Shown: piece by piece, positions 4,185-60,978 of the stretch
Layout of the letters: the number at the start of each line of letters is the position of its first letter
Position numbering within the stretch: the stretch's first letter is position 1
Origin: Aphrocallistes beatrix
Lineage: Eukaryota > Porifera > Hexactinellida > Sceptrulophora > Aphrocallistidae
Assembly: GCA_963281255.1 (NCBI GenBank)
Contig: OY725492.1
Location: 4,777,571 to 4,841,570 of the forward strand
Reading direction: 5' to 3'
Length of the DNA: 64,000 nt
The notes under the pieces: model-generated
Seen by the model: the letters and a program-made list of their open reading frames with translations, nothing else
Database searches by the model: none
Told to the model about the DNA's origin: nothing
Program-made: the position numbers and the translations under genes

Positions 4185-5423
4185 ATGGCAACCAATATTC
4201 AAGATGTCGCCCCTTACGACACAATCGCGCATTTCAATCACATCGCCGCTCTAATCCAACAAACCTTCAATGTCCTGATTGAGCAGCTGATCAAGAGGAG
4301 GGACACTCTCTGTCAAGAAGTGGCACAACTCCGAGATGATTTTCACAGTAAAGAATCCGCTCGTGTGGCTGCGATTGAAGAGTTGGAGAGAACTCAGCAA
4401 CAAATGCAGCAAATGAGCTTAAAGAGTAACATCAACCTCCCCGTCCACAAGCAAGCAGGTCTCATGTACCAACAAGCAAAGCAAAAGCTGTGTGTTCGCA
4501 CCCCACTCCCCAACCTCTCCTTCTCCTGTCCCACCCTCTCCCTCCTTCAATCTCAGATAGAGCAGTTCGGGGCGGTAGTCCAGCTGAAAGTGCCGAAATA
4601 CTCTGACAAGAAACAACCCATCCTAACCGCTGGGAAGAGAGAGAAAGGTGAGAAAGAACTTGATAGCCGTGGACTGTCACTAGATGAAGTTAACGAGAAG
4701 ATCTATATAGCGGATACATACAACCAACGCGTACAGGTACTGTCCTTCCAAGGAGAGTTCCTATCTCACTTTGGAGAGGAAGTACTGTGCAAGCCTTGGG
4801 GAATATCTGTCAGTGAAGATCATATATTCGTAACAGACATTGGTAATGACGAGCTATTCCAGTTCTGCAAGAACAGCCACCAACTACTCAACAGAGCTGG
4901 TGGTAAGGGGAGTAATGAAGGACAGCTGTCTAATCCACTGGGATTCAGTGTGGACTGGAATGGAGACGTGTTTGTAGCTGAGCTATCGAACGACAGAGTA
5001 TCCGTGTTCTCTAACCTCCTACACTACAAGCATACTATCGGACAAGGATCGCTACGTTCACCTCGAGACGTAAAACTAACGACCGATAAAGTGGTGGTAC
5101 TAGACAAGAGTCCTAACTGCATCCACTTCTTCTCCAGAAGTGGAGACCTCCTTACCTCCTGCGTGTCTCAAGGAGGAGGACAGGAATGTTTGGTATGTAG
5201 ACCTTTCTTCTTCTGTCTGGATTGTGAGCAGAATATCCTCGTTAGTGACTGCTTACACCATGTGATCAAGATACTCTCTAACTCCGGGGAGCTACTACAC
5301 ACCATTGGAAGGAAAGGGAAAGGAAAAGGAGAATTTATTGAGCCATATGGTATTGCCATTTCTAAATCTGGAATTTTGTTTGTATTGTCCTATAATCCCA
5401 ATCATCCTCTACAATTGTTTTGA
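4185..5423 (+). CDS. NHL-repeat protein N1, coiled coil plus six-bladed propeller
   Basis: Intronless, 412 aa. Residues about 20-80 form a charged helical/coiled-coil segment; residues 105-145 are a conserved linker (TPLPNLSFSCPTLSLLQ); residues about 145-412 form a six-bladed NHL propeller. Blade signatures include IADTYNQRVQVL (175-186) and a conserved Pro at 204, 251, 293, 340 and 387. The domain order resembles the C-terminal half of TRIM2/3/32/71 proteins, but no RING, B-box or filamin domain is present. NHL propellers bind RNA or protein. Variable residues sit around the blade Pro and in the D-x-x-N-x-R turns (CK-P, NPL, RSPR, CRPF, FIEP here). The start is supported by the conserved upstream cassette ending at the ATG. 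Ligand and function are unknown. Confidence 0.85.
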   Translation: MATNIQDVAPYDTIAHFNHIAALIQQTFNVLIEQLIKRRDTLCQEVAQLRDDFHSKESARVAAIEELERTQQQMQQMSLKSNINLPVHKQAGLMYQQAKQKLCVRTPLPNLSFSCPTLSLLQSQIEQFGAVVQLKVPKYSDKKQPILTAGKREKGEKELDSRGLSLDEVNEKIYIADTYNQRVQVLSFQGEFLSHFGEEVLCKPWGISVSEDHIFVTDIGNDELFQFCKNSHQLLNRAGGKGSNEGQLSNPLGFSVDWNGDVFVAELSNDRVSVFSNLLHYKHTIGQGSLRSPRDVKLTTDKVVVLDKSPNCIHFFSRSGDLLTSCVSQGGGQECLVCRPFFFCLDCEQNILVSDCLHHVIKILSNSGELLHTIGRKGKGKGEFIEPYGIAISKSGILFVLSYNPNHPLQLF

Positions 5424-5559
5424 ATTTATTGTTGTTTTTTTGATTACTTTTATTTTGTTGTTGTTGTTGTGATATATTATTATTCAAACAATCAATCTGA
5501 ATGTTTAATGTTTGGACTTCATTTATATTTGTCATAGAGGTGTCATATTATGGTTTATT

Positions 5560-6354
5560 TTGCTGACCGACAACTTACAAACTGTGAACCAAAATATCAG
5601 TCTTCTTAAAACGCCTGGAATTAGGAAGGTGTGAAAATGGGTTTAACAGGTGTGGCACTTTTGGTGCCTGATACCTCTGACACCATTGAGTTAACAGCCA
5701 ATCAGCTTCAGTTGTTCCAGGTGTCTCCAGATGGCACACGGAAACCACTCCAGATCGACACTTCACACCTTTTAAGTGACAATCTCACAGGTGATAAGGA
5801 TGACATGTTGCTATGGGAACTGGAGGAATGTTCTCAAGCTCTTCTGGAGATCTCCCTTCCGGAACCAACTCCACTTGGTGGCGTTTCAATCTGGAACTAT
5901 AACTTCACACCTGAAGACAGCTATGCGGGGGTGATGAGGATGGAGATTCTCCTTGACGACACTGAATTGTGGCACGAGCCACTGACACTTCGGAAGGCAC
6001 CAGACCATCTGAGATTCCAGTTCGGACAAGAAATTGTTTTCTCGGACACTTCCCCTCTCCCTTCCCCTCCCGACCACGGCGTGATTCCTCCAGCTGATCC
6101 CTCCGAAGTGGCGCCTTTTCTAGCTCTGCTTCTCGACCAATCACACTTCTCGAATTCGCGAGACAGTTCTCGCGCCCAATCTGCTGTGATGGCGGTTGGA
6201 GATCCGATTAAGCGGCCACTCACTAGCTTGACCGGAGCAAACTCTTAACTCGGTACTTACACTTATGACGTCATTGCAACTTGATCCATGCTGCTTGAAT
6301 GTGATTGTATTAAACGGATACTGAACTAACTGGGATAGTTCCGGGGTTAGTTCT
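5560..6354 (+). pseudogene. KATNIP fragment downstream of N1, with in-frame internal deletion
   Basis: An open frame at 5631-6248 matches the KATNIP last exon from KMGLTGVALL to the stop and continues into the KATNIP 3' flank up to 6354. Homology starts around 5560 with degraded similarity. Relative to copy A, positions 2230-2673 (444 nt, 148 codons) are missing, joining PLPSPPD directly to HGVIPPADP. No splice acceptor or promoter is evident, so this is most likely a relic rather than a gene. The fragment ends abruptly at the transposon beginning near 6361. Confidence 0.75.
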
Positions 6355-6360
6355 GCAGCA

Positions 6361-8564: not shown

Positions 8565-8819
8565 TAGCGAATATTTAAGTTTCCCTTTGAGATCTGAATT
8601 TCTTAAAATAATAATATTAAGTATTGACAAATATATTTGAATGGACGATGTCTTTTAATGGAAATGGAGATATCCATACAAACCTACATCTAACTACAAA
8701 CACACATAACTAGCTACATTACACAGTAAAGAGAAGTATCCTAGTTTACCTAGAAAACTGGACTGTTTAGGCCTAAAGCAGTGGTGCATCCTAGAAATAT
8801 ACATAAACTGCGATGGTAG

Positions 8820-11800
8820 TTAAGAACAGGCGATGAGAGCTTGAACAAGAAGGGTCAGTAGGAGTACACTGGTGATAAGAGATGGTAACACTCCTGAGCT
8901 GTTCAGGGCAGTGAAGGAGATGGAGGGAACGAATGGGTCTTGACCACATCTGTAATAATCCTGATTTTGCCCGATGTAGTAAGTCCCATTGTAGTTGTTG
9001 CAGTCATCCCATCGGTTGGGCTGAATCATGTAGTCGATACCAGGGATTGGTAAGTGGCTTTTGAAGACTCGGTTGTTACAAGCTACGTAGATAGTATTGG
9101 GTCTAGTCAAGGGAGAAACTTCAAGTGTACGAAGTACCTTGTCCCCCCAGTTTAAAAGCGAGGCGTTAGAAATGTCATTCCCAGAAGGAATCACATTTTC
9201 GCAGACGAGGTCATCAGCTGCTGTACTATAGGCAGAGGATGTGTCATAGATACTTACACAACTTTGGAAGTTGACTCGAGGATAGTAAAACAAGAAATGG
9301 AGACACATTTCCTCTTGCGTCGACAAGCCCCCGAGCGTATAGTCCCCTCTTTCTGTCGTCTTGTATTGGCAGTTTACGACCAGCTCATCTCCAGGCTTTA
9401 TCGTGATTGGAGGATTTAGGTAGATCGGATCCTGTTATGAAGAACATAATTAAGATTAGGAGAGTAGTTCATCATGAAAATAAAATCGAACATTTTTCCA
9501 TTCATTTTTGATTGTTTTCGTTCTCGATCATTTTTATATAAACCAAAATTCAAAATACTTACCAAGCTTAGATATCAGAATACCGTAAACTGGCATGACT
9601 TTGGCCCTAAGAGGTTGCTTTGTCCCACAATAGCAATTTTAATAAATATACTCAAACTTATGAATCAATGTAATCACATTGATAATATGTTGAATGAAAC
9701 TCTCAATATATCCAAACGTATTTAAACTGCAGTATTACTAAGTTTGAGTATATTTTATTATAATTGCTATTGTGGGACAAAGCAATCTCTTAGGGCCAAA
9801 GACGCCCCAGTTTACGGTACTTAATAGTATTTTAGTCCTATAAGAAGACTCAAATGGTTGTAACAACATAGGAAGATAGAATCAGTTAATGATGATCAGA
9901 AGAGACAATATTAGTCCCCCAAAATGATCGGAAAAATAATCGGGCTAAAAGAGATCGTGATTACTATATTTTACTTGAAGTGTGTTAGAAAAATTGTTTT
10001 GCTTATTTTAAGATATCTAGTGAATATAATATTCTCCCTAGTGCATCTTGCAAATAAATTATGCCACTTTCTTACTTGAAATTCGAAGTCATAATTGAGA
10101 TTTCTGTCAACCGTTCCTATTTCTTGTCCGTTTCTGACTTGCTGTGTCCACATAGCACTTCCAGCTAAATGAGAGTGGAGAAGAGACGCGAATACTTGGA
10201 TGTCAGTTCCGAAATCCCTGGTGCATTCCGAGGGACAATAGCCCTGTACCACGTAGCTATCAGCGTAAGGGGGGATTCTCATATTTGGAGAAACGGAGTG
10301 TCCCAATGCAAATACTGCAGCGTCCTGTGTTCTCGTTTCAGCCGTGTGGTAGAGAGTGAACCCACTGCTGTCCACTATGCCAGACACTCCAGCAGGGTTG
10401 TTATAGTGCGTCTCAAGCAGTAATGTCCTGAAACTCTCCCCAGGGCCAATCGGGAATCCCACTTCTGGAGGATAATCGAAGTCCACTCCTCCCACTGCCC
10501 AACCAGCGATGATGATTGTTCTGCAGAGGCCAGTTTGGAACGGGGAGGCGTCTCCTGTGCAAAGGCCTGAATTCAGCGGTAGCTGTTCATCACAGACGTA
10601 CAGCAGCATATGGTGCACGTACTCTGAGGAGGAAGGAGTGATGTCGATCTGAACAAATTGGATAATAGATAATTAAACAACCGTTAGAAGCTAAAAGTGT
10701 GAAAATTTGTTTTCCATTTTTTTACCGGGAGGTGAAATTTAACTTAGATCTTCGAACTTAATCGTAGACTCATCATTTGACACCTACAAGCCAATTTTCA
10801 TATATCTACGACTTGCTAATTCTTCAACCAATTCGGACAAACATTAAAAAATCCAAAGGTTAGTACGTACTCGGATAATACCTTCTTCGGTTAGTACGTA
10901 CTCATTTTTCTGAACCAAAATCCATCTATAATATAGATTTCTATGTAGTACAAACTCGGTTAGTACGTACTTACGGATAGTATGTACTAATAATTCCTTC
11001 GAAGGGGTACGTCTTATCCGAGTTCTACTGTATATATAGGGTGTCTCAAAAGTTCTGCAACAACCAATTTTACTTTGTTAATTTTACTAAGATCACTTGA
11101 TTGTATTCCAAATTAGCCTCCATAAATGAAATCTAGCACCCTTCTAGCATAGAAATGAGCTCAACTCATTACGCAAAAAACATTTCTTATAAAATTTTAA
11201 ATAATTACAGACCAATTACTCCAAAATTTGGAGCTCAAAAGTGCAAAGTTTGAAGATCACTATTTTTCTAATGAAATATTACATCAATCACTTCTATATT
11301 CTGTAATTGATTCATAATACTAAAATAATATTATTACTTTTGAATTATGTAGCAGTAATCTCCGATAAGAACGAGTCTTTTTAAAGTATAGCCATAAAAT
11401 GTACCTGAGATGTGAGATTTTTTATTGAGTTAAAAAATATTCTTTACGAGACAATGAAATATATGATCCATCGTTGCAAATAAATTGAGAAATACAGGCC
11501 ATTGGAATGCAAAATAATTAAGATAATCCTCTCTTATTTTTGATTAAAATGAGGTATCAGATGTTCGATCTATTTATCTATTTATAATACATTAGTAAAA
11601 TTCGTTGCAGAACTTTTGAGACACCCTGTATACATACACAAACATTAATAGAGTTTTAATAGTAAGGCTAGACCTTGACACCTGAATGAAAGCATGGACC
11701 CTAGGTTCTAGTAGTAATATCCACTCTATGCTCTACACACGTATTTTTCAACTACATAGTTACCCCTATTCGGATGATGTGTCTCTTAGAAGTTGGTTTA

Positions 11801-14198: not shown

Positions 14199-14451
14199 AG
14201 CGAATATTTAAGTTTCCTTTGAGATCTGAATTTCTTAAAATAATAATATTAAGTATTGACAAATATATTTGAATGGACGATGTATTTTAATGGAAATGGA
14301 GATATCCATACAAACCTACATCTAACTACACACACACATAACTAGCTACATTACACAGTAAAGAGAAGTATCCTAGTTTGCCTAGAAAACTGGACTATTT
14401 AGGCCTAAAGCAGTGGTGCATCGTAGAAATATACATAAACTGCGATGATAG

Positions 14452-23483: not shown

Positions 23484-24084
23484 CTCGGTACTTACACTTG
23501 TGACGTCATTGCAACTTGATCCATGCTGCTTGAATGTGATTGTATTAAACGGATACTGAACTAACTGGGATAGTTCCGGGGTTAGTTCTGGTGTCAGTTC
23601 CAATTCCTCGTTACACATTAATGCAATTCAATCTATAAATAGTATCAATTAGCTCTGTTAATAATGTGAAAGCCAGCTGTGACTTGAAATCCCTGAATCC
23701 TGATTCGCAGTGGTTTAGAAGTGATTCAGTTTCTAAATTTCAGTCCTCTGCGATCGTCTAATACAAATGTGTACAAATTGATTCCTCCTCGCTAAGTTTA
23801 TGTGACTCAAAGATTATCAGGACACTTTAGTAAGATGCATCTTACAAAGTTACAATTATTTATCATCATGGCAGCAGAGAACATTCTCAAGTTTGTATTC
23901 GTTCTTAAGTTTGCTCAAAGTTTCAATATAATCCGAAAGTGCACTTTTATCACCTCAGCTCTAAAGATGATAATCAAAAATTCAATATTTCTTAGATTTT
24001 TGAATACTAGTTACGAACAATATCACACTTCAACTGTTTCATTCTTTATTGTCACAAGTTCGCTTTGATGGTTGCATCAGGCAT
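23484..24084. other. KATNIP copy B 3' flank
   Basis: Non-coding. 23484-23790 is the duplicate of 2848-3130. 23820-23900 also matches 38908-38990. Confidence 0.6.
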
Positions 24085-26068: not shown

Positions 26069-27301
26069 ATGGCAACCAATATTCAAGATGTCGCCCCTTA
26101 CGACACACTCGCACATTTCGATCGCATCGCCGCTCTAATCCAACAAACCTTCAATGTCCTGATTGAGCAGCTGATCAAGAGGAGGGACACTCTCTGTCAA
26201 GAAGTGGCACAACTCCGAGATGATTTTCACAATAAAGAATCCGCTCGTGTGGCTGCGATTGAAGAGTTGGAGAAAACTCAGCAACAAATGCAACAAATGA
26301 GCTTAAAGAGTAACATTAACCTCCCCGTACAAGAACAAGCAGTCTCCGTGTTCAAAGAGGCAAAGCAAAATCTGTCTATTCCCACCCCACTCCCCAACCT
26401 CTCCTTCTCCTGTCCCGACCTCTCCCTCCTTCAATCTCAGATAGAGCAGTTCGGGGAGGTAGTCCAGCTGAAAGCACCGAAATACTCTGAGAAGAAACAA
26501 CCCATCCTAACCGCTGGGAAGAAAGGGAAAGGTGAGAAAGAGCTTAGTGGCTATGCACTGTCACTAGATGAAGTTAATGAGAAGGTGTATATAGCGGATA
26601 CTCACAACCATCGCGTACAGGTACTGTCCTTCCAAGGAGAGTTCCTATCTCACTTTGGAGAGGAAGTACTATCCAGGCCTTGGGGAATATTAGTCAGTGA
26701 TGATCACATCTTCGTTACAGACCGTAGTCACACGCTATTCCAGTTCTGCAAGAACAGCCACCAACTACTCAACAGAGCTGGTGGTTACGGGAAGAATGGA
26801 GGACTATATCATCCAGGAGGATTAAGTGTGGACTGGAATGGAGACGTGTTTGTAGCTGACCAATCGAACAATAGAGTATCAGTGTTCTCTAACCTCCTAC
26901 ACTACAAGCACAGTATCGGACAAGGATCGCTATCTGCACCTAAAGACGTAAAGCTAACGACCGATAAAGTGGTGGTACTAGACTGGAGTCCTAACTGCAT
27001 CCACTTCTTCTCCAGAAGTGGAGACCTCCTTACCTCCTGCGTGTCTCAGGGAGAAGGACAGGAATGTTTGGTATGTAAACCTTACTTCTTCTGTCTGGAC
27101 TGTGAGCAGAATATTCTCGTTAGTGACTGCTTACACCATGTGATCAAGATTATCTCAAACTCCGGGAAGCTACTACACACCATTGGAAGGGAAGGGAAAG
27201 GAAAAGGAGAATTAACTAATCCATATGGTATTGCCATTTCTAGATCTGGAATTTTGTTTGTATTGTCCTATAATCCCAATCATTCTCTACAATTGTTTTG
27301 A
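26069..27301 (+). CDS. NHL-repeat protein N2
   Basis: Intronless, 410 aa. Framework nearly identical to N1, but the propeller face differs: IADTHNHRV, LSRPWG, a one-residue-shorter turn (TDRSHTLF), KNGGLYHPGG replacing NEGQLSNPLG, SAPKD, CKPYF and LTNPYG. The N-terminal coiled coil and linker are conserved. It lies about 2.6 kb downstream of KATNIP copy B, mirroring the N1/KATNIP copy A arrangement, so the pair N1-N2 probably reflects the same segmental duplication. Function unknown beyond an NHL propeller that would bind RNA or protein. Confidence 0.85.
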   Translation: MATNIQDVAPYDTLAHFDRIAALIQQTFNVLIEQLIKRRDTLCQEVAQLRDDFHNKESARVAAIEELEKTQQQMQQMSLKSNINLPVQEQAVSVFKEAKQNLSIPTPLPNLSFSCPDLSLLQSQIEQFGEVVQLKAPKYSEKKQPILTAGKKGKGEKELSGYALSLDEVNEKVYIADTHNHRVQVLSFQGEFLSHFGEEVLSRPWGILVSDDHIFVTDRSHTLFQFCKNSHQLLNRAGGYGKNGGLYHPGGLSVDWNGDVFVADQSNNRVSVFSNLLHYKHSIGQGSLSAPKDVKLTTDKVVVLDWSPNCIHFFSRSGDLLTSCVSQGEGQECLVCKPYFFCLDCEQNILVSDCLHHVIKIISNSGKLLHTIGREGKGKGELTNPYGIAISRSGILFVLSYNPNHSLQLF

Positions 27302-29335: not shown

Positions 29336-30574
29336 ATGGCAACCGATATTCAAGATGTCGCCCCTTACGACACAATCGCGCATTTCGATCGCATCGCCGC
29401 TCTAATCCAACAAACCTTCAATGTCCTGATTGAGCAGCTGATCAAGAGGAGGGACACTCTCTGTCAAGAAGTGGCACAACTCCGAGATGATTTTCACAGT
29501 AAAGAATCCGCTCGTGTGGCTGCGATTGAAGAATTGGAGAGAACTCAGAAGCAAATGCAACAAATGAGCTTGAAGAGTAACATTAACCTCCCCGTACAAG
29601 AACAAGCAGTCTCCATGTTTCAAGAAGCAAAGCAAAAGCTGTGTGTTCGCACCCCACTCCCCAACCTCTCCTTCTCCTGTCCCACCCTCTCTCTCCTTCA
29701 GTCTCAGATAGAGCAGTTCGGGGAGGTAGTCCAGCTGAAAGCACCGAAATACTCTGAGAAGAAGCAACCCATCCTAACCGCTGGGAAGAAAGGGAAAGGT
29801 GAGAAAGAGCTTGATGGCTGTGGACTGTCACTAGATGAAAATAATGAGAAGGTGTATATAGCAGATTCTAACAACAAACGCGTACAGGTACTGTCCTTCC
29901 AAGGAGAGTTCCTATCTCACTTTGGAGAGGAAGTACTATCCTTGCCTTGGGGAATATTAGTCAGTGATGATTACATTTTCGTTACAGACTGCGGTAGTCA
30001 CACGCTATTCCAGTTCTGTAAGAACAGCCACCAACTACTCAACAGAGCTGGTGGTAAGGGAACGAATGAAGGACAGCTGTCTGATCCACGGGGATTAAGT
30101 GTGGACTGGAATGGAGACGTGTTTGTAGCTGACCAATCGAACAACAGAGTATCCGTGTTCTCTAACCTCCTACACTACAAGCACACTATCGGACAAAGAT
30201 CACTATCTAACCCTTATGACGTAAAACTAACGACCGTTAAAGTGGTGGTACTGGACAGGAGTCCTAACTGTATCAACTTCTTCTCCAGAAGTGGAGACCT
30301 CCTTACCTCCTGCGTGTCTCAGGGAGAAGGACAGGAATGTTTGGTAGATAGACCTTACTTCTTCTGTCTGGACTGTGAGCAGAATATTCTCGTTAGTGAT
30401 CGCTACCACCATGTCGTCAAGATTTTCTCAAACTCCGGGGAGCTACTACACACCATTGGAAGGAAAGGGAGAGGAAAAGGAGAATTAGCTTATCCATATG
30501 GTATTTCCATTTCTAAATCTGGAATTTTGTTTGTATTGTCCCATAATCCCAACCATCCTCTACAATTGTTTTGA
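29336..30574 (+). CDS. NHL-repeat protein N3
   Basis: Intronless, 412 aa, with the same coiled coil, linker and six-bladed propeller architecture as N1. Variable-site residues: IADSNNKRV, LSLPWG, TDCGSHTLF, SDPRG, SNPYD, DRPYF, VSDRYHHV, LAYPYG and SHNPNH. N3 is the most divergent copy at the fifth-blade turn (RYHHVVKIF). The start is fixed by the conserved cassette and the family-wide MATxIQDVAPYDT leader. Confidence 0.85.
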   Translation: MATDIQDVAPYDTIAHFDRIAALIQQTFNVLIEQLIKRRDTLCQEVAQLRDDFHSKESARVAAIEELERTQKQMQQMSLKSNINLPVQEQAVSMFQEAKQKLCVRTPLPNLSFSCPTLSLLQSQIEQFGEVVQLKAPKYSEKKQPILTAGKKGKGEKELDGCGLSLDENNEKVYIADSNNKRVQVLSFQGEFLSHFGEEVLSLPWGILVSDDYIFVTDCGSHTLFQFCKNSHQLLNRAGGKGTNEGQLSDPRGLSVDWNGDVFVADQSNNRVSVFSNLLHYKHTIGQRSLSNPYDVKLTTVKVVVLDRSPNCINFFSRSGDLLTSCVSQGEGQECLVDRPYFFCLDCEQNILVSDRYHHVVKIFSNSGELLHTIGRKGRGKGELAYPYGISISKSGILFVLSHNPNHPLQLF

Positions 30575-31886: not shown

Positions 31887-33077
31887 ATGGCAACCAATAT
31901 TCAAAATGTCGCCCCTTACGACACAATCGCGCATTTCGATTACATCACCATTCTAATCCGACGAACTTTCAATGTCCTGATTGAGCAGCTGATCAAGAGG
32001 AGGGACACTCTCTGTCAAGAAGTGTCACAACTCCGAGATGATTTTCATCATAAAGAATCCGCTCGTGTGGCTAAGATTGAAAATTTGGAGAGAACTCAGC
32101 AGCAACTGCAGCAAATGAGTTTGGAGAGTAACATTAACCTCCCTGTGCACGAGCGAGCAGGTATCATGTACCAAGAGGAAAAGCAACAGCTATGTATTCC
32201 CACCCCACTCCCCAACCTCTCCTTCTCCTGTCCCACCCTCTCTCTCCTTCAATCTAAAATAGAGCAGTTCGGAGAGGTTGTCCAGCTGAAAGCACCACAA
32301 AATTCAGAGATTCGTTTCGACGTTTCTTCTCTCGAATCTGAAACTGTATCTGAACCCCTGACATACTGCAACAGTAGTGAATTCGAGACTGCCACAGAGG
32401 GACCACCCATGATGGAAAAGTGTCGATATTGTCACATAGAGTTTGAAAGCGCCATAACGAGGGTACACATGGAGAAGTGTCTATTCAATCCGGAAGTGGC
32501 TAACGATCTCCCACAAGAATTGTCCCTTCCCTACGGCACCTGTACTAGAAGTGCAGATTCCTCTTGCGATAGCAATAGTGAGAGTGAGCAGGTGTGTCGA
32601 AAGTGTCATGAGGTGTTCACGCTGTCTGGACTCAAGAGCCACGCTGAAGAATGCCAGCTCGAGGAAGTGACTGTGCCGAATCCTTTTGAAGTCACTCCAC
32701 TCCTTCAACGCTTTTCGGAAAAGTCCGTGTCAAATTCGACGCCAAGTAAGGCAAGCCCCACTCGACCTAAACCATCTCCCAGGTCTGTAATGCCAGACCC
32801 CGACAAGGAAACGCCTATACTCCCGATGTACCCCTTGTCTACAAACCCCTCTCCCTTGCTGCCCCCACCTATCCCTGCCAGGAAGACTGAGACCGAGAAA
32901 ATGAAATGCAACATTTGCCAGAAAGAAATCCCAGTGGAGGAGATGCCATCTCATGTGGAGGAGTGTCGCGATAAGGAGGAGGGACAGTGTCCCCACTGCA
33001 AGGAAGCCTTCCTGATCACTGTCCTGCCCGACCACACGGAAAAGTGTCAGTTTGGGATGGAAGAAAGGTTCTATTAA
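31887..33077 (+). CDS. Chimeric protein Z1: NHL-family coiled coil fused to C2HC (UBZ4-like) zinc fingers
   Basis: Intronless, 396 aa. Residues 1-137 are clearly the NHL-family N-terminus (MATNIQNVAPYDTIAHF through SLLQSKIEQFGEVVQLKAP). The homology stops exactly where the propeller should begin. The rest has four fingers of the form C-x2-C-x11-H-x3-C at about 179-198, 237-256, 341-360 and 368-387, for example CNICQKEIPVEEMPSHVEEC. Acidic and Pro-rich linkers separate fingers 2 and 3. The spacing equals that of Rad18-type UBZ4 ubiquitin-binding fingers, but this class is also found in other C2HC proteins, so ubiquitin binding is inference. The paralogous finger set occurs in Z2. Confidence 0.82.
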   Translation: MATNIQNVAPYDTIAHFDYITILIRRTFNVLIEQLIKRRDTLCQEVSQLRDDFHHKESARVAKIENLERTQQQLQQMSLESNINLPVHERAGIMYQEEKQQLCIPTPLPNLSFSCPTLSLLQSKIEQFGEVVQLKAPQNSEIRFDVSSLESETVSEPLTYCNSSEFETATEGPPMMEKCRYCHIEFESAITRVHMEKCLFNPEVANDLPQELSLPYGTCTRSADSSCDSNSESEQVCRKCHEVFTLSGLKSHAEECQLEEVTVPNPFEVTPLLQRFSEKSVSNSTPSKASPTRPKPSPRSVMPDPDKETPILPMYPLSTNPSPLLPPPIPARKTETEKMKCNICQKEIPVEEMPSHVEECRDKEEGQCPHCKEAFLITVLPDHTEKCQFGMEERFY

Positions 33078-35354: not shown

Positions 35355-36593
35355 ATGGCAACCAATATTCAAGATGTCGCCCCTTACGACACAATCGCGC
35401 ATTTCGATCGCATCGCCGCTCTAATCCAACAAACCTTCAATGTCCTGATTGAGCAGCTGATCAAGAGGAGGGACACTCTCTGTCAAGAAGTGGCACAACT
35501 CCGAGATGATTTTCACAGTAAAGAAACAACTCGTGTGGCTGCGATTGAAGAATTGGAGAGAACTCAGCAGCAAATGCAACAAATGAGCTTGAAGAGTAAC
35601 ATTAACCTCCCCGTCCACAAGCAAGCAGGTCTCATGTACCAAGAAGCAAAGCAAAAGCTGTGTGTTCGCACCCCACTCCCCAACCTCTCCTTCTCCTGTC
35701 CCACCCTCTCCCTCCTTCAATCTCAGATAGAGCAGTTCGGGGAGGTAGTCCAGCTGAAAGCACCGAAATACTCTGAGAAGAAACAACCCATCCTAACCGC
35801 TGGGAAGAAAGGGAAAGGTGAGAAAGAGCTTAGTGGCTATGCACTGTCACTAGATGAAGTTAGTGAGAAGGTGTATATAGCGGATACTAACAACCAACGC
35901 ATACAGGTACTGTCCTTCCAAGGAGAGTTCCTATCTCACTTTGGAGAGGAAGTACTAGCCTTGCCTTGGGGAATAACAGTCAGTGATGATTACATCTTCG
36001 TTACAGACTATGGTAGTCACACGCTATTCCAATTCTGTAAGAACAGCCACCAACTACTCAACAGAGCTGGTGGTAGAGGGAAGAATAAAGGACAGCTGTC
36101 TAATCCACTGGGATTAAGTGTGGACTGGAATGGAGACGTGTTTGTAACTGACCAATTGAACAATAGAGTATCCGTGTTCTCTAACCTCCTACACTACAAG
36201 CACACTATCGGACAAGGATCGCTATTTCAACCTACTGACGTAAAACTAACAACAGATAAAGTGGTGGTACTGGACTGGAGTCCTAACTGCATCCACTTCT
36301 TCTCCAGAAGTGGAGACCTCCTTACCTCCTGCGTGTCTCAGGGAAGAGGACAGGAATGTTTGGTATGTAAACCTTTCTTCTTCTGTCTGGACTGTGAGCA
36401 GAATATCCTCGTTAGTGACTGCTTACACCATGTGATCAAGATACTCTCTAACTCCGGGGAGCTACTACACACCATTGGAAGGGAAGGGAAAGGAAAAGGA
36501 GAATTCATTAAACCCTATGGTGTTGCCATTTCTAAATCTGGAATTTTGTTTGTATTGTCCTATAATCCCAATCATCCTCTACAATTGTTTTGA
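35355..36593 (+). CDS. NHL-repeat protein N4
   Basis: Intronless, 412 aa. Coiled coil, linker and six NHL blades as in N1. Variable-face residues: IADTNNQRI, LALPWG, TDYGSHTLF, RGKNKGQLSNPLG, TDQLNNRV, FQPTD, CKPFF and FIKPYG. The fourth-blade loop (FQPT) and the AL-P pair are unique to this copy in the window. Followed by a KATNIP relic. Confidence 0.85.
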   Translation: MATNIQDVAPYDTIAHFDRIAALIQQTFNVLIEQLIKRRDTLCQEVAQLRDDFHSKETTRVAAIEELERTQQQMQQMSLKSNINLPVHKQAGLMYQEAKQKLCVRTPLPNLSFSCPTLSLLQSQIEQFGEVVQLKAPKYSEKKQPILTAGKKGKGEKELSGYALSLDEVSEKVYIADTNNQRIQVLSFQGEFLSHFGEEVLALPWGITVSDDYIFVTDYGSHTLFQFCKNSHQLLNRAGGRGKNKGQLSNPLGLSVDWNGDVFVTDQLNNRVSVFSNLLHYKHTIGQGSLFQPTDVKLTTDKVVVLDWSPNCIHFFSRSGDLLTSCVSQGRGQECLVCKPFFFCLDCEQNILVSDCLHHVIKILSNSGELLHTIGREGKGKGEFIKPYGVAISKSGILFVLSYNPNHPLQLF

Positions 36594-39923: not shown

Positions 39924-41414
39924 ATGTCAGCCAATATTCAAGATGTCGCCCCTTACGACACAATTTCAGAGTGTATCACAATCGACATCACTCCTCTCTC
40001 TCACCCCCTTCCTCCCGATCCTCTCTCTCACCCCCTTCCCCCCAATCCCTCCTCATCCAACCCGATATTTGTATCAACTGCCACAGAGGGACCACCCACG
40101 ATGGAAACGTGTAGATATTGTCACATAGAGTTTGAAAGCGCCGTAACGAGGGTACACATGGAGGAGTGTCCACTCAATCCGGAAGTGGCTAACGATCCCT
40201 CAGAAGAATTGTCCCTTCCCTACGGTACCTGTACTAGGAGTACAGATTCTTCTTGCGATAGCGATAGCTACAGTGATGAACTGGTGGCATGCCACTATTG
40301 CGCTCAGGAATTCACAACTGCTCAAATTGTGGAACATAACGAAACCTGTGAGGGTCGTCTCGCCGCTTCTCCCCTCGAATCTGAAACTGAATCTGGATCC
40401 CCCACCTTCCTCAACAGCAGTGAATACGAGAGTGTTCCAACCCACTTTGCCACGAAACCGGAGACACTTAAATCCATTTCAGAGGGTATCACAATCGACA
40501 TCACGTCCGAACCGGAATCCATTGAGGCAGAAGATCAGGTGTGTCGGAAGTGTCACGGAGTCTTCACGCTGTCCGGACTCAAGAGCCACGCTGAAGAGTG
40601 CCGCCTACAGCACGAGCTCGAGGAAGCGAATCCTTTCACTCTACCCCTTTCAACCCTTCCAACGCCCCCTCTACCCCTTTTGCAAAAACCTGTGAAATTG
40701 ACACCGCGTAAGAAGAGATCCAACCGACCTAAACCATCTCCCAGGTACGTAATGCCAGACCCAGACAAGGAAACGCCTATACTCCCGATGTTCCAACTTC
40801 CTACGACAAACCCCTTCTCCTTGACACAGCCCCCACCTATCCCTGCCAGGAAGACTGAGAAAATGAAATGCAACATTTGCCGGAAAGAAATGGTAGTGGA
40901 GGAGATGCCATCGCATGTGGAGGAGTGTCGCAATGAGGAGGAGGGACAGTGTCCCCACTGCAAGGAAGCCTTCCTAATCACTGTCCTGCCCGACCACACG
41001 GAAAAGTGTCGGTCTGGGAAGGAAGAAGCCACAGCTATTGCCCGGTTAGTCCCCCTCCAATTAGCCAACCGCCCCGTCATCCTAGGGAAAGAACCGAATC
41101 CACAGAAGTACGGACGCTGCGAAAACTGTAATCTAGACGTGCTCTTCAGTGGGCACAGGTGTCTGGACCACATGTGTGGGATCTGCCACTCAGAAGTGGA
41201 CCCGAGTGAGATGGAGGCGCACCGGATCCAGTGTCTCCGGAAGCAGACGTCAGCCTACTCCGAACTGAACCGCCGAAACTGGATCCGCTGTCCCTCCTGT
41301 CTCATCGACATTCCTCCAGAGGATCACGAAAACCACATCAATACCTGCGGAGACAACAAGATGTCCGACCACACGGAAAAGTGTCAGTCTGAGAAGGAAG
41401 AAGGGAGTTTTTAA
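39924..41414 (+). CDS. Tandem C2HC (UBZ4-like) zinc-finger protein Z2 with NHL-family leader
   Basis: Intronless, 496 aa. Only the first 13 residues (MSANIQDVAPYDT) are from the NHL family; the coiled coil is absent. Seven fingers fit C-x2-C-x11-H-x3-C, starting at Cys 63, 123, 207, 316, 343, 418 and 456, for example CHYCAQEFTTAQIVEHNETC and CPSCLIDIPPEDHENHINTC. An additional Cys/His cluster lies at 399-416. Low-complexity Ser/Pro/Glu linkers separate the fingers. Fingers 1, 3, 4 and 5 correspond to the four of Z1; the others are extra. Rad18-type spacing suggests ubiquitin binding, but that is inference from spacing only. Confidence 0.82.
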   Translation: MSANIQDVAPYDTISECITIDITPLSHPLPPDPLSHPLPPNPSSSNPIFVSTATEGPPTMETCRYCHIEFESAVTRVHMEECPLNPEVANDPSEELSLPYGTCTRSTDSSCDSDSYSDELVACHYCAQEFTTAQIVEHNETCEGRLAASPLESETESGSPTFLNSSEYESVPTHFATKPETLKSISEGITIDITSEPESIEAEDQVCRKCHGVFTLSGLKSHAEECRLQHELEEANPFTLPLSTLPTPPLPLLQKPVKLTPRKKRSNRPKPSPRYVMPDPDKETPILPMFQLPTTNPFSLTQPPPIPARKTEKMKCNICRKEMVVEEMPSHVEECRNEEEGQCPHCKEAFLITVLPDHTEKCRSGKEEATAIARLVPLQLANRPVILGKEPNPQKYGRCENCNLDVLFSGHRCLDHMCGICHSEVDPSEMEAHRIQCLRKQTSAYSELNRRNWIRCPSCLIDIPPEDHENHINTCGDNKMSDHTEKCQSEKEEGSF

Positions 41415-42851: not shown

Positions 42852-44075
42852 ATGGCAACCAATATTCAAGATGTCGCCCCTTACGACACAATCGCACATT
42901 TCGATCGCATCGCCGCTCTAATCCAACAAACCTTCAATGTCCTGATTGATCAGCTGATCAAGAGGACGGACACTCTCTGTCAAGAAGTGGCACAACTCCG
43001 AGATGATTTTCACAGCAAAGAATCCGCTCGTGTGGCTGCGATTAAAGAGTTGGCGAGAACTCAGCAACAAATTAGCTTGAAGAGTAACATTAACCTCCAC
43101 GTACAAGAACAAGCAGTCTCCGTGTTTCAAGAGGCAAAGCAAAAGCTGTGTGTTCCTACCCCACTCCCCAACCTCTCCTTCTCCTGTCCCACCCTCTCCC
43201 TCCTTCAATCTCAGATAGAGCAGTTCGGGGAGGTAGTCCAGCTGAAAGCACCGAAATACTCTGTGAAGAAACAACCCATCGTAACCGTTGGGACGCAAGG
43301 GGAAGGTGAGAAAGAGCTTGATGGCTGTGGACTGTCACTAGATGAAGTTAATGAGAAGATATATATAACAGATACTGGCAACCATCGCATACAGGTATTG
43401 TCCTTCCAAGGAGAGTTCCTATCTCACTTTGGAGAGAAAGTACTGTCCAATCCTTGGGGAATATCAGTCAGTGATGATCACATCTTCGTAGCAGATAATC
43501 ACAGGCTATTCCAGTTTTGTAAGAAAATCCACCAACTACTCAACAGAGCTGGTGGTTGGGGAAGTAATGAAGGACAACTGTCTGGTCCACGGGGATTAAG
43601 TGTGGACTGGAATGGAGACGTGTTTGTAGCTGACCAATGGAACAACAGAGTATCAGTGTTCTCTAACCTCCTACACTACAAACAAACTATCGGACAAGAA
43701 TCGCTATCTGAGCCTCATGACGTAAAACTAACGGCAGATAAAATGGTGGTACTAGATAGGAGTCCTAACTGTATCCACTTCTTCTCCAGAAGTGGAGACC
43801 TCCTTACCTCATGCGTGTCTCAGGGAAGAGGACAGGAATGTTTGGTTTATGAACCTTGGTTCTTCTGTCTGGACTGTGAGCAGAATATCCTCGTTAGTGA
43901 CTGGGGACAGCATGTGATCAAGATACTCTCTAACTCCGGGGAGCTACTGCACACCATTGGAAGGGAAGGGAAAGGAAAAGGAGAATTCATTTTTCCATAT
44001 GGTATTGCCATTTCTAAATCTGGAATTTTGTTTGTATTTTCTGATAATCCTAATCATTCGTTACAATTGTTTTGA
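42852..44075 (+). CDS. NHL-repeat protein N5
   Basis: Intronless, 407 aa. Three residues are deleted in the coiled coil (RTQQQISLK) and two in a propeller turn (ADNHRLF). Variable-face residues: ITDTGNHRI, LSNPWG, SGPRG, ADQWNNRV, SEPHD, YEPWF, VSDWGQHV and FIFPYG. It shares the YEPWF/DWG pair with N7, which suggests sequence exchange (gene conversion) or a shared ancestor for that segment. Followed by two scattered KATNIP relics. Confidence 0.85.
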   Translation: MATNIQDVAPYDTIAHFDRIAALIQQTFNVLIDQLIKRTDTLCQEVAQLRDDFHSKESARVAAIKELARTQQQISLKSNINLHVQEQAVSVFQEAKQKLCVPTPLPNLSFSCPTLSLLQSQIEQFGEVVQLKAPKYSVKKQPIVTVGTQGEGEKELDGCGLSLDEVNEKIYITDTGNHRIQVLSFQGEFLSHFGEKVLSNPWGISVSDDHIFVADNHRLFQFCKKIHQLLNRAGGWGSNEGQLSGPRGLSVDWNGDVFVADQWNNRVSVFSNLLHYKQTIGQESLSEPHDVKLTADKMVVLDRSPNCIHFFSRSGDLLTSCVSQGRGQECLVYEPWFFCLDCEQNILVSDWGQHVIKILSNSGELLHTIGREGKGKGEFIFPYGIAISKSGILFVFSDNPNHSLQLF

Positions 44076-46062: not shown

Positions 46063-47300
46063 ATGGCAACCAATATTCAAGATGTCGCCCCTTACGACAC
46101 AATCGCACATTTTGATCGCATCGCCGCTCTAATCCAACAAACCTTCAATGTCCTGATTGAGGAGCTGATCAAGAGGAGGGACACTCTCTGTCAAGAAGTG
46201 GCACAACTCCGAGATGATTTTCACAGTAAAGAATCCACTCGTGTGGCTGCGATTGAAGAGTTGGAGAGAACTCAGCAACAAATGCAGCAAATGAGCTTGA
46301 AGAGTAACATTAACCTCCCCGTTCACAAGCAAGCACAACTCATATACCAGAATGCGAGACAGCAGCTGTGTGTTCCTACCCCACTCCCCAACCTCTCCTT
46401 CTCCTGTCCCACCCTCTCCCTCCTTCAATCTCAGATAGAGCAGTTCGGGGAGGTAGTCCATCTGAAAGCACCGAAATACTCTGAGAAGAAACAACCCATC
46501 CTAACCGCTGGGAAAAAAGGGAAAAGTGATAAGCAGCTTAATGGCTGTGGACTGTCACTAGATGAAGTTAATGAGAAAGTGTATATAGCGGATTCTGTAA
46601 ACAATCGCGTACAAGTACTGTCCTTCCAAGGAGAGTTCCTATCTCACTTTGGAAAGGAAGTACTGTCCGATCCTTGGGGAATATCAGTCAGTGATGATTA
46701 CATTTTCGTTTCAGACATTGGTAATGACACGCTATTCCAGTTCAATAAGAAAAGCCACAGACTACTCAACAGAGCTGGGGGTGAGGGGAGGAATGAAGGA
46801 CAACTGTCTTGTCCACGGGGATTAAGTGTGGATTGGAGTGGAAACGTGTTTATAACTGACCAATGGAACCACAGAGTATCCGTGTTCTCTAACCTCTTAC
46901 ACTACAAGAACACTATCGGACAAGGACGCTATTTCACCCTAAAGACGTAAAACTAACGACAGATAAAGTGGTGGTGCTAGACTGTAGTCCCAACTGCATC
47001 CACTTCTTCTCCAGAAGTGGAGACCTCCTTACCTCCTGCGTGTCTCAGGAAAAAGGACATAAATGTTTGGATAATAGGCCTTCCTTCTTCTGTCTGGACT
47101 GTGAGCAGAATATCCTCGTTAGTGACTGCTTGCACCATGTGATCAAGATACTCTCTAACTCCGGAGAGCTACTACACACCATTGGAAGGAAAGGGAAAGG
47201 AATAGGAGAATTAACTGAACCATATGGTATTGCTATTTCTAAATCTGGAATTTTGTTTGTTTTGTCCTGTAATTCCAATCATCCTCTGCAATTGTTTTGA
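46063..47300 (+). pseudogene. NHL-repeat protein N6, single-base frameshift
   Basis: Full-length relative of N1, but one base is missing near 46928 (GGACAAGGACGCTAT where paralogues have GGACAAGGATCGCTAT). This breaks the frame after blade 3: the first frame stops at 46948-46950 and the remaining propeller (46968-47300) is open in another frame. The upstream cassette is also reduced. Variable-face residues include IADSVNNRV, LSDPWG, SCPRG, NRPSF and LTEPYG. Most likely a recent pseudogene; a sequencing error is possible. Confidence 0.8.
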
Positions 47301-56025: not shown

Positions 56026-57264
56026 ATGGCAACCAATATTCAAGATGTCGCCCCTTACGACACAATCGCACATTTCGATCGCATCGCCGCTCTAATCCAA
56101 CAAAACTTCAGTGTCCTGATTGAGCAGCTGATCAAGAGGATGGACACTCTCTGTCAAGAAGTGGCACAACTCCGAGATGATTTTCACAGTAAAGAATCCA
56201 CTCGTGTGGCTGCGATTGAAGAGTTGGAGAGAACTCAGCAGCAAATGCAACAAATGAGCTTGAAGAGTAACATCAACCTCCCCGTCCACAAGCAAGCAGG
56301 TCTCATGTACCAAGAAGCGAAGCAAAAGATGTGTGTTCCCACCCCACTCCCCAACCTCTCCTTCTCCTGTCCCACCCTCTCCCTCCTTCAATCTCAGATA
56401 GAGCAGTTCGGGGAGGTAGTCCAGCTGAAAGCACCGAAATACTCTGAGAAGAAACAACCCATCCTAACCGCAGGGAAGAAAGGGAAAGGTGAGAAAGAGC
56501 TTGATGGCAGTGGACTGTCACTAGATGAAGTTAATGGGGAGGTATATATAGCAGATTATAGCAACCATCGCGTACAGGTACTGTCCTTCCAAGGAGACTT
56601 CCTATCTCACTTTGGAGGAGAAGTGCTATCGGGTCCTTGGGGAATATCAGTCAGTGATGATTACATCTTCGTGACAGACTCTGATAATGACACGCTATTC
56701 CAGTTCTGTAAGAACAGCCACCAACTACTCAACAGAGCTGGTGGTGAGGGGAAGAATGAAGGACAGCTGTCTAGTCCACTGGGATTAAGTGTGGACTGGA
56801 ATGGAGACGTGTTTGTAGCTGACCAATGGAACAACAGAGTATCAGTGTTCTCTAACCTCCTACACTACAAGCATACTATCGGACAAGGATCACTATCTGC
56901 ACCTAAAGATGTAAAACTAACGACAGATAAAGTGGTGGTACTAGACTGGAGTCCTAACTGCATCCACTTCTTCTCCAGAAGTGGAGACCTCCTTACCTCC
57001 TGCGTGTCTCAGGGAGAACGACAGGAATGTTTGGTATATGAACCTTGGTTCTTCTGTCTGGACTGTGAGCAGAATATCCTCGTTAGTGACTGGGGACACC
57101 ATGTGATCAAGATACTCTCTAACTCCGGGGAGCTACTACACACCATTGGAAAGGAAGGGAAAGGAAAAGGAGAATTAACTTATCCATATGGTATTGCCAT
57201 TTCTAAATCTGGAATTTTGTTTGTTTTATCTGATAATCCTAGCTACTCTTTACAGTTGTTTTAG
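56026..57264 (+). CDS. NHL-repeat protein N7
   Basis: Intronless, 412 aa, with coiled coil, linker and six-bladed propeller. Variable-face residues: IADYSNHRV, LSGPWG, TDSDNDTLF, LSSPLG, ADQWNNRV, SAPKD, YEPWF, VSDWGHHV and LTYPYG. The ending DNPSYSLQLF is shared with N8 (ENPSYSLQLF), in line with their recent tandem duplication. Yet the propeller faces of N7 and N8 differ at most variable sites. Confidence 0.85.
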   Translation: MATNIQDVAPYDTIAHFDRIAALIQQNFSVLIEQLIKRMDTLCQEVAQLRDDFHSKESTRVAAIEELERTQQQMQQMSLKSNINLPVHKQAGLMYQEAKQKMCVPTPLPNLSFSCPTLSLLQSQIEQFGEVVQLKAPKYSEKKQPILTAGKKGKGEKELDGSGLSLDEVNGEVYIADYSNHRVQVLSFQGDFLSHFGGEVLSGPWGISVSDDYIFVTDSDNDTLFQFCKNSHQLLNRAGGEGKNEGQLSSPLGLSVDWNGDVFVADQWNNRVSVFSNLLHYKHTIGQGSLSAPKDVKLTTDKVVVLDWSPNCIHFFSRSGDLLTSCVSQGERQECLVYEPWFFCLDCEQNILVSDWGHHVIKILSNSGELLHTIGKEGKGKGELTYPYGIAISKSGILFVLSDNPSYSLQLF

Positions 57265-57603: not shown

Positions 57604-57740
57604 ATATAATATTTATAGACGAGATGTCAAATTCTAAATGTCCATAGATGTTAATACAGATTTCTGGATTAACAATAATCGATTTATTTACCTAACAACC
57701 AAACAGACGGAATGTACACTGAATAACATAGTGTCTATAC

Positions 57741-58204: not shown

Positions 58205-58292
58205 ATGTACATATTGATCAAGAACTATTATCTACTATTATCCGAGTACTAACAGAGTTCTTCTGTATTCCGACTGACTAGAGTTAGCAGTT

Positions 58293-58472: not shown

Positions 58473-58964
58473 GTATGTACCATAGGAATTCAACTCTCAA
58501 TTGGAAGTAAAGGAATTGATTGGTGGAGACTAAGTTATTGTTGAGTTTTAGTCTTGAGACAAGCGCGCTTCGCTCCAAAGTCGCCCCAGTTTACGGTAAT
58601 ACTATTTAACCGAATAAACAGCACAAACATTGAAATTGACGCACTTTCCAATAATCTTCAGGGAAACACTGAGTGATATCCTCAATGAGGTAACATGAAT
58701 CTGCAAATGCAGACTAGAGTAATCAATAATCGGTTCTCGCAAACATTCTTTTAAAATAAAATACTTTACAGTAGTTTCCAAAGCACAAAGAAAGATTAGA
58801 TTTCAAATAGGATATCTTTATGATGGTAACCTGATAATACCTTAGATTGAAGTGGTTGCTAGGGAAACAACTGGAGATTTAGGGAATTTTATTCTGGTTT
58901 ATCAAATATGGTGGAATCTTGATATTTTTTCGAAAATAATCCTTGTTGGTCAATCCAATTGAAT

Positions 58965-59135
58965 ATAGTCAGGGTCGCTTATTATGAACATTCGTCTATT
59001 ATGAACTAACCTCCTGGTCCCAATTTCATTTTTTAGATAGGATTTGTATTGAATCAAGTTCGCTTAATATGAAGTATCTCTATTATGAACAGATTTTTTG
59101 GTCCTCTGGTGGTTCACAATAAGCGACCCTGACTG
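58965..59135. mobile_element. MITE, CAGTCAGGGTCGCTTA family
   Basis: ATAGTCAGGGTCGCTTATTA to AAGCGACCCTGACTG. Counterpart of 55150-55317. Confidence 0.8.
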
Positions 59136-59624
59136 TATTCAAAACTTTGTTCAATGAATAGTACTGATTTTTAAAACATTACAACCTGCCTGGATTTACT
59201 AAGTCGATAAGAATTTTGTATTTTACTGTTGCTCTTTAGACAGGTAATCCGCTAAATTAGTCGATCTGACCACAAGCTCATTGATCTTATGTCTTCTATC
59301 CTAGAACTTTACCATTAGACTAATAGTATGGAATATAGTACCGTAGTGTTCCCTTAATTAAGCATTTTCATCAATATTTGAACCGAAAACAGCTGTGTTG
59401 TACTCCTAAGTTGTCCATCTTCTAACTAGATTATGCTACCAATAGATCAGTGTGCTAGTGTGTAAATTTACTCCTGTATACACATTTTAACTTTCTACGG
59501 TCTACGTATAGTATTTTCATTAATTATACAAAAAATATAAATAAATGCGATTCAGCTTAATCTTGGATTATTTTGTTTCTTAGGAATGTTTAGTATGTTG
59601 TCCATTTAACCAAGGTTGTAGTAT

Positions 59625-59739
59625 TGTAGTATCAACCATTGAAGTAGTATGGCATTCTCCAGTTACATATATATTACAGATTGTTTCTTAGTTAAAGTAT
59701 AATATTTCTATTCGACACAAACTCGCCTAAATCCAATCA
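59625..59739 (+). promoter_or_regulatory. Conserved NHL-family upstream cassette, N8
   Basis: GTATCAACCATTGAAGTAG, ACATATATATTACAGATTG, TCTATTCGACACAAACTCGC and CCAATCA before the ATG. Confidence 0.6.
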
Positions 59740-60978
59740 ATGGCAACCAATTTTCAAGATGTCGGCCCTTACGACACAATCGCACATTTCGATCGCATCG
59801 CCGCTCTAATCCAACAAACCTTCAATGTCCTGATTGAGCAGCTGATCAAGAGGAGGGACACTCTCTGTCAAGAAGTGGCACAACTCCGAGATGATTTTCA
59901 CAGTAAAGAATCCGCTCGTGTGGCTGCGATTGAAGAGTTGGAGAGAACTCAGCAGCAAATGCAACAAATGAGCTTGAAGAGTAACATTAACCTCCCCATC
60001 CACAAGCAAGCAGGTCTCATGTACCAAGAAGCAAAGCAAAAGCTGTGTGTTCCCACCCCACTCCCCAACCTCTCCTTCTCCTGTCCCACCCTCTCCCTCC
60101 TTCAATCTCAGATAGATCAGTTCGGGGAGGTGGTCCAGCTGAAAGCACCGAAATACTCTGACAAGAAACAACCCATCCTAACCGCTGGGAAGAAAGGGAA
60201 AGGTGAGAATGAGCTTGATGGCTGTGGACTGTCACTAGATGAAGTTAATGAGAAAGTGTATATAGCAGATTATAACAACCAACGCGTACAGGTACTGTCC
60301 TTCCAAGGAAAGTTCCTATCTCACTTTGGTGAGGAAGTACTGTTCTGGCCTTGGGGAATATCAGTCAATGAAGATTGCATCTTCGTTGCAGACATTGGTA
60401 ATGACGAGCTATTCCAGTTCTGTAAGAACAGCCACCAACTACTCAACAGAGCTGGTGGTTTGGGGAAGAATGAAGGACAGCTGTCTAATCCACTGGGATT
60501 AAGTGTGGACTGGAATGGAGACGTGTTTGTAGCTGACCAATCGAACCACAGAGTATCCGTGTTCTCTAACCTCCTACACTACAAGCATACTATCGGACAA
60601 GGATCGCTATCTGAACCTCATGACGTAAAACTAACGACAGATAAAGTGGTGGTACTGGACTGGAGTTCTAACTGCATCCACTTCTTCTCCAGAAGTGGAG
60701 ACCTCCTTACCTCCTGCGTGTCTCAGGGAGAAGGACAGGAATGTTTGGTAGATAGACCTTACTTCTTCTGTCTGGACTGTGAGCAGAATATCCTCGTTAG
60801 TGACTGCTTACACCATGTGATCAAGATACTCTCTAACTCCGGGGAGCTACTACACACCATTGGAAGGGAAGGGGAAGGAATAGGAGAATTAACTTATCCA
60901 TATGGTATTGCCATTTCTAAATCTGGAATTTTGTTTGTTTTGTCTGAGAATCCTAGCTATTCTTTACAGTTGTTTTAG
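59740..60978 (+). CDS. NHL-repeat protein N8
   Basis: Intronless, 412 aa, same architecture as N1. Variable-face residues: IADYNNQRV, LFWPWG, SVNEDCIFVADIGNDELF, LSNPLG, ADQSNHRV, SEPHD, DRPYF and LTYPYG. The bulky FW before the second-blade Pro is unique in the window. It pairs with N7 in a tandem duplication and lies about 1.2 kb upstream of cyclin C. Confidence 0.85.
   Translation: MATNFQDVGPYDTIAHFDRIAALIQQTFNVLIEQLIKRRDTLCQEVAQLRDDFHSKESARVAAIEELERTQQQMQQMSLKSNINLPIHKQAGLMYQEAKQKLCVPTPLPNLSFSCPTLSLLQSQIDQFGEVVQLKAPKYSDKKQPILTAGKKGKGENELDGCGLSLDEVNEKVYIADYNNQRVQVLSFQGKFLSHFGEEVLFWPWGISVNEDCIFVADIGNDELFQFCKNSHQLLNRAGGLGKNEGQLSNPLGLSVDWNGDVFVADQSNHRVSVFSNLLHYKHTIGQGSLSEPHDVKLTTDKVVVLDWSSNCIHFFSRSGDLLTSCVSQGEGQECLVDRPYFFCLDCEQNILVSDCLHHVIKILSNSGELLHTIGREGEGIGELTYPYGIAISKSGILFVLSENPSYSLQLF

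Follow-up and report, generated by a model that had tools for sequence, protein, structure and literature searches.

An array of NHL-propeller genes

We analysed a 64,000-bp window of the genome of the hexactinellid sponge Aphrocallistes beatrix (contig C6, positions 4777571–4841570; the genome searched comprises 100.5 Mb in 28 contigs), which contains an array of genes encoding NHL beta-propeller proteins. Seven are intact, single-exon and 407–412 codons long, and all lie on the plus strand: N1 (4185..5423, 412 amino acids, a helical part followed by a six-bladed NHL propeller, Pfam NHL E 5.5e-20), N2 (26069..27301, 410 amino acids, E 1e-21), N3 (29336..30574, 412 amino acids), N4 (35355..36593, 412 amino acids, the query of our structure model), N5 (42852..44075, 407 amino acids), N7 (56026..57264, 412 amino acids) and N8 (59740..60978, 412 amino acids). 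N1 and N2 were identified as open reading frames (ORFs) with Pfam matches, and N3, N5, N7 and N8 by ORF and alignment. The eighth copy, N6 (46063..47300, plus strand), has a frame break near 46926. Across N2–N8, protein identity to N1 is 82–89%. An earlier, sequence-only reading of this DNA had described an eight-gene array; eight genes do lie in the range it gave, of which seven have intact ORFs, and the loop variants that it listed match the translations, with the downstream piece of N6 read in its own frame.

N1 is preceded by a conserved block of about 110 bp (4075..4184, plus strand), presumed to be promoter or 5' untranslated region; the final 30 bp before the ATG in the nine other array genes are 90–100% identical to those of N1. 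A Pfam scan of N1 and N2 gave no match to RING (E up to 1), B-box or NACHT/NB-ARC, which agrees, for the two proteins scanned, with the reading's statement that RING and B-box are missing. None of the 24 places listed by a whole-genome B-box search falls inside the window, and inspection of the proteins by eye revealed neither a signal peptide nor a membrane segment.

Diversifying selection in the close clade

The closest relatives form a clade of 17 genes (clade A), comprising the seven intact window genes, eight more on contig C6 and two on C4; N6 was omitted for its frameshift and L048 because it is a fragment, and the ten genes from outside the window are at least 82.5% identical. To a codon alignment of these 17 genes we fitted the models M0, M1a, M2a, M7, M8a and M8 with our own implementation (GY94, F3x4, nucleotide tree). 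Twice the log-likelihood difference, the likelihood-ratio test statistic (LRT), was 420.9 for M2a against M1a, with a class of omega (the ratio of nonsynonymous to synonymous rates, dN/dS) of 6.5 at 12.8% of sites, 502.7 for M8 against M7 and 380.8 for M8 against M8a. Two propeller partitions, each given its own tree, yielded 171.8 and 120.2 for M2a against M1a, compared with only 4.5 (p 0.10) for the N-terminal part.

Recombination as the source of these values was tested and is disfavoured. Data simulated under the M1a null with clade-A settings and without recombination gave an LRT of at most 4.6 (4/4 runs), and those in which the tips were relabelled every 25 codons gave 0.4 to 11.6 (8/8 runs), so that the simulated maximum of 11.6 stands against the observed 420.9. 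One false site appeared in each of two null runs. Optimisation ran for fewer steps on the simulated data than on the real alignment.

We then located the selected sites on an AlphaFold2 model of N4, which was built from the seven window sequences and comprises a helical N-terminal half (helices at 13–81, 87–102 and 118–131, a low-confidence region) and six blades. Ten-residue means of model confidence are 80–96 over most of the propeller and 59–72 at residues 321–340. Strand limits were taken from the model, except that strands A5 and A6 were each started one residue earlier. At a posterior above 0.95, the DA and BC loops, which make up the top face, hold 22 of the 24 selected propeller sites (hypergeometric p 2.8e-9), each of the twelve top-face loops having at least one, and the bottom loops (AB and CD) hold none. 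The remaining two are strand-A residues that immediately follow the blade proline, and a single selected site, L93, falls outside the propeller, in the N-terminal part. Nei-Gojobori counting puts dN/dS in clade A at 1.00 [0.70–1.38] over all top-loop codons; the values for bottom loops (0.34), strands (0.31) and the N-terminal part (0.40) are lower. The N-terminal half, the bottom loops and the strands of clade A are under purifying selection.

The selected sites coincide with the RNA-contact positions of LIN41

Foldseek's top matches to the model were the NHL domains of TRIM71/LIN41 and Thin, some of them solved with RNA (TM-score 0.85 for the TRIM71 target). A zebrafish LIN41 study lists 14 RNA-contacting residues: C563, R564, R581, S582, R611, K628, D629, Y658, W660, R676, R707, F722, R752 and R770 (PMC5908797). 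Mapped by chain alignment (chain index = residue minus 415, derived by hand), each of the 14 falls on one of a set of five positions per blade, two of them before the proline (P-2, one contact; P-1, four), one after it (P+1, two), and two in the B–C turn D-x-x-N, namely its first x (x1, three) and second x (x2, four). Five places in six blades define 30 face positions; blade 1 has no proline and was placed by alignment with L071. This set is independent of the variability data, though variability had been examined first. In N4 the positions lie within residues 160–412 (35832..36590, plus strand), at 160–162, 178–179, 202–203, 205, 219–220, 249–250, 252, 267–268, 291–292, 294, 308–309, 338–339, 341, 356–357, 385–386, 388 and 403–404.

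Twenty of the 24 selected propeller sites of clade A fall on these 30 positions (p 4e-19), and most of the five fixed top-face positions per blade are under diversifying selection in this clade. A tree-free estimate of dN/dS at the face was 1.95 [1.33–3.09]. The sequence-only reading had named two outcomes that would count against it, dN/dS at or below 1 at its listed loop positions or variable sites spread over both faces of the propeller, and neither was observed: omega in the site models clearly exceeds 1 for most of those positions, and the model places the sites on a single face, the one that contacts RNA in LIN41.

The pattern recurs in other paralogue groups

Three further groups were fitted. 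Group B (seven genes on C6 at 5.22–5.27 Mb and one on C4) gave an LRT of 145.8, with 19 of 23 selected sites in top loops and one in an AB loop (posterior above 0.9, here and in the next two groups). For group C, eight genes on C2 with L036 (stop), L046 (short) and L037 (other contig) omitted, the LRT was 213.1, with 23 of 29 sites in top loops and two in AB loops. Group E, for which 8 of the 12 genes fetched were used (on C19, C24 and C7), is only 32–34% identical to N1; its LRT was 58.7, with 13 of 17 sites in top loops and none at the bottom. The 30 face positions take up 18/23, 21/29 and 14/17 selected propeller sites in B, C and E, at the same threshold of 0.9 (0.95 in A), with enrichment p values of 1e-12 to 4e-19 over the four groups. 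The same set of five positions per blade stands out in all four fitted groups, and 18 sites recur in at least three of them. Tree-free dN/dS at the face of group C was 3.78 [2.20–8.54]; the rest of the propeller gave 0.24–0.47 across A, B and C, and other top-loop positions 0.51–1.10. A four-gene family on C12, assessed by counts without a fitted model, has 2.07 kinds of residue per column in BC loops, 1.45 in DA loops and 1.07–1.27 elsewhere, and seven more distant genes were displayed outside the fitted models. To say that variation is confined to one set of blade loops slightly overstates the case, given the two strand-A sites and L93 in clade A and the few AB-loop sites in B and C.

Family size and distribution

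A genome search with N1 gave 102 matches among those listed (101 of 2059 candidates scored), a search with a member of a second family (L002) gave 102 among those listed (101 of 2117), and an NHL profile gave 150 among those listed (150 of 3391). Merging 352 of the 354 listed starts wherever they lay within 1,500 bases (the ZF1 row, described below, and one short N-terminal piece were omitted) leaves about 277 NHL loci genome-wide among the matches listed, a figure in which fragments and pseudogenes are included and a few genes may be counted more than once. In bacterial and archaeal genomes, 82 stretches matched a search pattern and none was confirmed. A search of the present genome for zf-C4 gave two places, in keeping with an animal source.

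On C12, four NHL matches with identical scores are spaced at exactly 3,380 bp (4253726–4265110), probably a very recent tandem amplification. Relatives on C1 and C15 (e.g., L058) seem to carry an intron near codon 80, where the window family is intronless. We considered whether the in-frame TAG near codon 80, seen in L058 (the one copy read), might be a conserved stop and rejected this; it is probably a 3' splice site, judging from the first 83 codons, which match separately upstream.

Composition of the face and the nature of the ligand

Over the 17 genes of clade A, the 30 face positions are rich in Ser (16%), Tyr (11%), Asn (8%), Gly (8%) and Trp (8%). All 17 faces are distinct, pairs differing at 12–25 of the 30 positions with gaps counted. 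Tyr, Trp and Phe together account for 122 of about 507 face residues, compared with 472 of about 6,500 elsewhere (totals by hand). This composition resembles an antibody-like paratope rather than the basic pocket of LIN41.

These data bear on whether the array might be a diversified RNA-binding repertoire, whose propellers bind different RNAs (viral or transposon) through a LIN41-type face. Such a role would suit the nearest folds, several of which were solved with RNA, as well as the identity of the varying positions with the LIN41 contacts, and rapid change of RNA recognition among NHL domains is stressed in the LIN41 paper (PMC5908797). The charges point the other way: the net charge of the face is -3 to +4 over the 17 genes and that of the seven intact window propellers -2 to -16, whereas the contacts listed for LIN41 include eight basic residues and one acidic residue among 14, and the excess of Tyr, Trp and Phe fits protein contacts better. 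Because the face lacks a basic character and abounds in Ser, Tyr, Asn, Gly and Trp, binding to the RNA backbone is unlikely as the common mode of the family, as far as composition can tell, and we consider an RNA-binding repertoire unlikely overall. The sequence-only reading had inferred a diversifying recognition family for RNA, self/non-self or pathogen; its core is supported by the site models and the one-face mapping, and RNA becomes the least favoured of its ligand options because the face is not basic.

A proposed recognition repertoire

We propose that the window array is probably part of a genome-wide, RING-less recognition repertoire for diverse putative ligands, likely proteins. Each gene would yield a cytosolic protein, given that no signal sequence was apparent by eye, which might oligomerise through its N-terminal helices so that the propellers together offer an antibody-like, multivalent surface to a ligand that differs from gene to gene or keeps changing. 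The ligand would most likely be a protein of a pathogen, a symbiont or a non-self cell, and a partner docking on the constant half could sense the binding. Tandem duplication, together with a degree of sequence exchange among copies and selection acting on the face, would generate new specificities. More tentatively, and with rather less confidence than an even bet, we suggest that an early-branching animal may have turned the RNA-binding face of the TRIM-NHL propeller into a repertoire resembling that of antigen receptors. Its hundreds of cytosolic genes would each combine an unvarying helical half with a paratope-like face that has diversified independently; they would differ between individuals, act in recognising pathogens or in telling self from non-self, exchange face segments and recruit new C-terminal modules.

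A role in allorecognition or gamete recognition instead of a pathogen-facing one would have precedent, as large families with diversifying faces serve self/non-self discrimination, e.g., the fungal WD-propeller NLRs (PMC4986451). With no signal peptide or membrane segment seen by eye, the proteins of two cells could meet only after fusion or uptake, and we regard this role as distinctly unlikely.

Several points weigh against the selective interpretation of the face that the proposed repertoire depends on. Site posteriors were obtained by naive empirical Bayes, with branch lengths fixed up to a scale; simulated recombination pushed three of the eight LRTs above 5.99 and so inflates the test, though far less than the observed value would require; the N-terminal part of clade A gives 15.3 for M8 against M7 with omega 2.2, and the N-terminal omega interval of group B includes 1; the structure model rests on seven sequences and is of low confidence in the N-terminal half and at residues 329–334. 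The face dN/dS of group B, 1.51 [0.93–2.94], has an interval that spans 1. In addition, synonymous divergence (dS) at the face exceeds that of the remaining propeller two- to threefold in each of the three groups compared (A 0.27 vs 0.13, B 0.32 vs 0.11, C 0.13 vs 0.06), and in group B the third position of face codons varies like the first (0.306 vs 0.296), so that higher local mutation or older lineages may contribute. In A, B and C alike, third positions show more variation at face codons than at the remaining codons. Possible sources of the raised face dS are old lineages that selection has maintained, a higher mutation rate, and the counting of codons changed several times, which inflates the estimate.

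The raised dS would also suit a local mutational process, either targeted hypermutation or conversion from diverse donors, that varies the face and leaves selection secondary. Differing pairs at face codons are separated by two or three base changes in 47% of cases vs 14% elsewhere, T is in excess at the first and third positions of face codons, the pairs of genes that share a loop variant differ from loop to loop, and the pairwise homoplasy index (PHI) test for recombination is significant in B (p 0.0005) and C (p 0.037). However, nonsynonymous divergence rises far more than dS (0.52 at the face vs 0.04 in the rest, clade A); in A and C, positions 1 and 2 of face codons vary more than position 3, unlike in the remaining codons; and residue 250 has nine different codons in the 17-gene clade, all with T at the third base and hypervariable in the first two. 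The sites, moreover, are scattered over twelve separate loops, and PHI is not significant in clade A (p 0.15 and, for the framework, 0.38), where it lends no support to frequent gene conversion. We therefore judge a primarily mutational origin quite improbable. A bias of the kind produced by diversity-generating retroelements was also considered and rejected, as the base composition has no adenine focus.

Relaxed constraint, i.e., tolerant top loops drifting after duplication, would by itself fit the omega of 1.00 for the whole DA and BC loop set and the group B face interval, but is very improbable given face intervals above 1 in A and C next to lower values at other top-loop positions, and LRTs of 58.7–420.9 that exceed the null simulations (run with clade-A settings only).

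Exchange between copies, as invoked in the proposed repertoire, may also be reflected in the 3' ends of the genes. In clade A, dS is 0.12 in the N-terminal part and 0.06–0.30 in 10-codon propeller windows up to residue 396, and 0.58–0.77 in the last 16 codons of N1-type genes (residues 397–412), and in 21 of 28 window gene pairs (counted by hand) the alignment ends no more than about 50 bp from the stop codon. High 3'-end dS and loss of alignment fit sequence exchange that spares the 3' end, but PHI is significant in B and C only.

Zinc-finger chimeras and neighbouring genes

Two further members of the array, absent from the sequence-only reading, carry the family's upstream block without the propeller. 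ZF1 (31887..33077, plus strand) joins this block and about 141 N-terminal codons to C2HC-like zinc fingers, and ZF2 (39924..41414, plus strand) joins it and about 14 N-terminal residues to zinc-finger sequence. The closest counterpart examined for the zinc-finger part of ZF2 is L087, an open frame of the same contig at a distance of about 290 kb, with 88.6% identity over 402 amino acids. Pfam matches for the zinc fingers are weak and below curated cut-offs (E 0.007 and above), and the putative C2HC label follows the visible C-x2-C ... H-x3-C spacing. These fusions show that the shared 5' cassette can also acquire a new C-terminal module. Another match joining the N-terminal part to zinc fingers, at C2:1681209–1681814, contains stops.

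Elsewhere in the window, a gene with Pfam DUF4457 domains, which we take to be KATNIP-like, is segmentally duplicated (1–3330, 5600–6074 and 20665–23973; about 95–97% identity), a 475-bp piece of it sitting behind N1. A second duplicated stretch (8566–11038 and 14199–16666, 96% identity) has a Cu2 monooxygenase-domain ORF on the minus strand (9971–10618 and 15603–16250), and an ORF with a snurportin-1 cap-binding domain lies within the array at 49564–50172.

Comparison with known systems

The NHL propellers characterised so far, LIN41 and Brat among them, regulate RNA in development. The window family has in common with the TRIM-NHL proteins (TRIM2/3, TRIM71/LIN41, Brat, Mei-P26 and Thin) a six-bladed C-terminal NHL propeller (phmmer E 3.2e-34 to TRIM2), and differs in that N1 and N2 have no RING or B-box match, in that its face is not basic, and in forming arrays of near-identical paralogues under diversifying selection. 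The low-confidence helices that precede the propeller in the model are candidates for the coiled coil of TRIM-NHL proteins. RNA-binding NHL domains of the LIN41/Brat type have a conserved basic top face, whereas the equivalent positions here are hypervariable with a near-neutral charge range, as given above. A review of TRIM proteins assigns NHL TRIMs to its subfamily C and notes relatives that have partly lost the RING/B-box signature, such as Malin (PMC3503706), and a study of Mei-P26 locates its RNA binding on the charged top surface (PMC9070667). In the available part of a paper on sponge immune transcriptomes, NHL appears only in a legend's list of domains (PMC8242945), and among the titles and abstract starts listed by our searches of an open-access library, none described an NHL family under diversifying selection.

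The fungal NWD genes (HET-D, HET-E and HET-R) offer a likeness: these beta-propellers are reported to be under positive selection at four positions per WD repeat, fixed in each blade and on the interaction face, with concerted evolution (PMC4986451). There, the WD repeats shuffle within and between genes and are attached to NLR and effector domains; in the window family the repeats are NHL, the blades number six, N1 and N2 have no NACHT match, and variation lies between arrayed genes.

TRIM5alpha and finTRIM B30.2 domains and the nematode MATH and F-box families are likewise fast-evolving and intracellular, with a selected binding surface on a constant scaffold, though they use other binding folds and have a link to E3 ligases that is not seen in the window family. 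The positions with which LIN41 reads RNA are here the hypervariable part of a large, fixed-scaffold gene family, and our analysis names the 30 equivalent positions as candidates for testing. If the proposed repertoire is real, the NHL fold would join the short list of binding surfaces diversified by evolution, alongside the immunoglobulin, LRR, WD-propeller, B30.2 and MATH folds.

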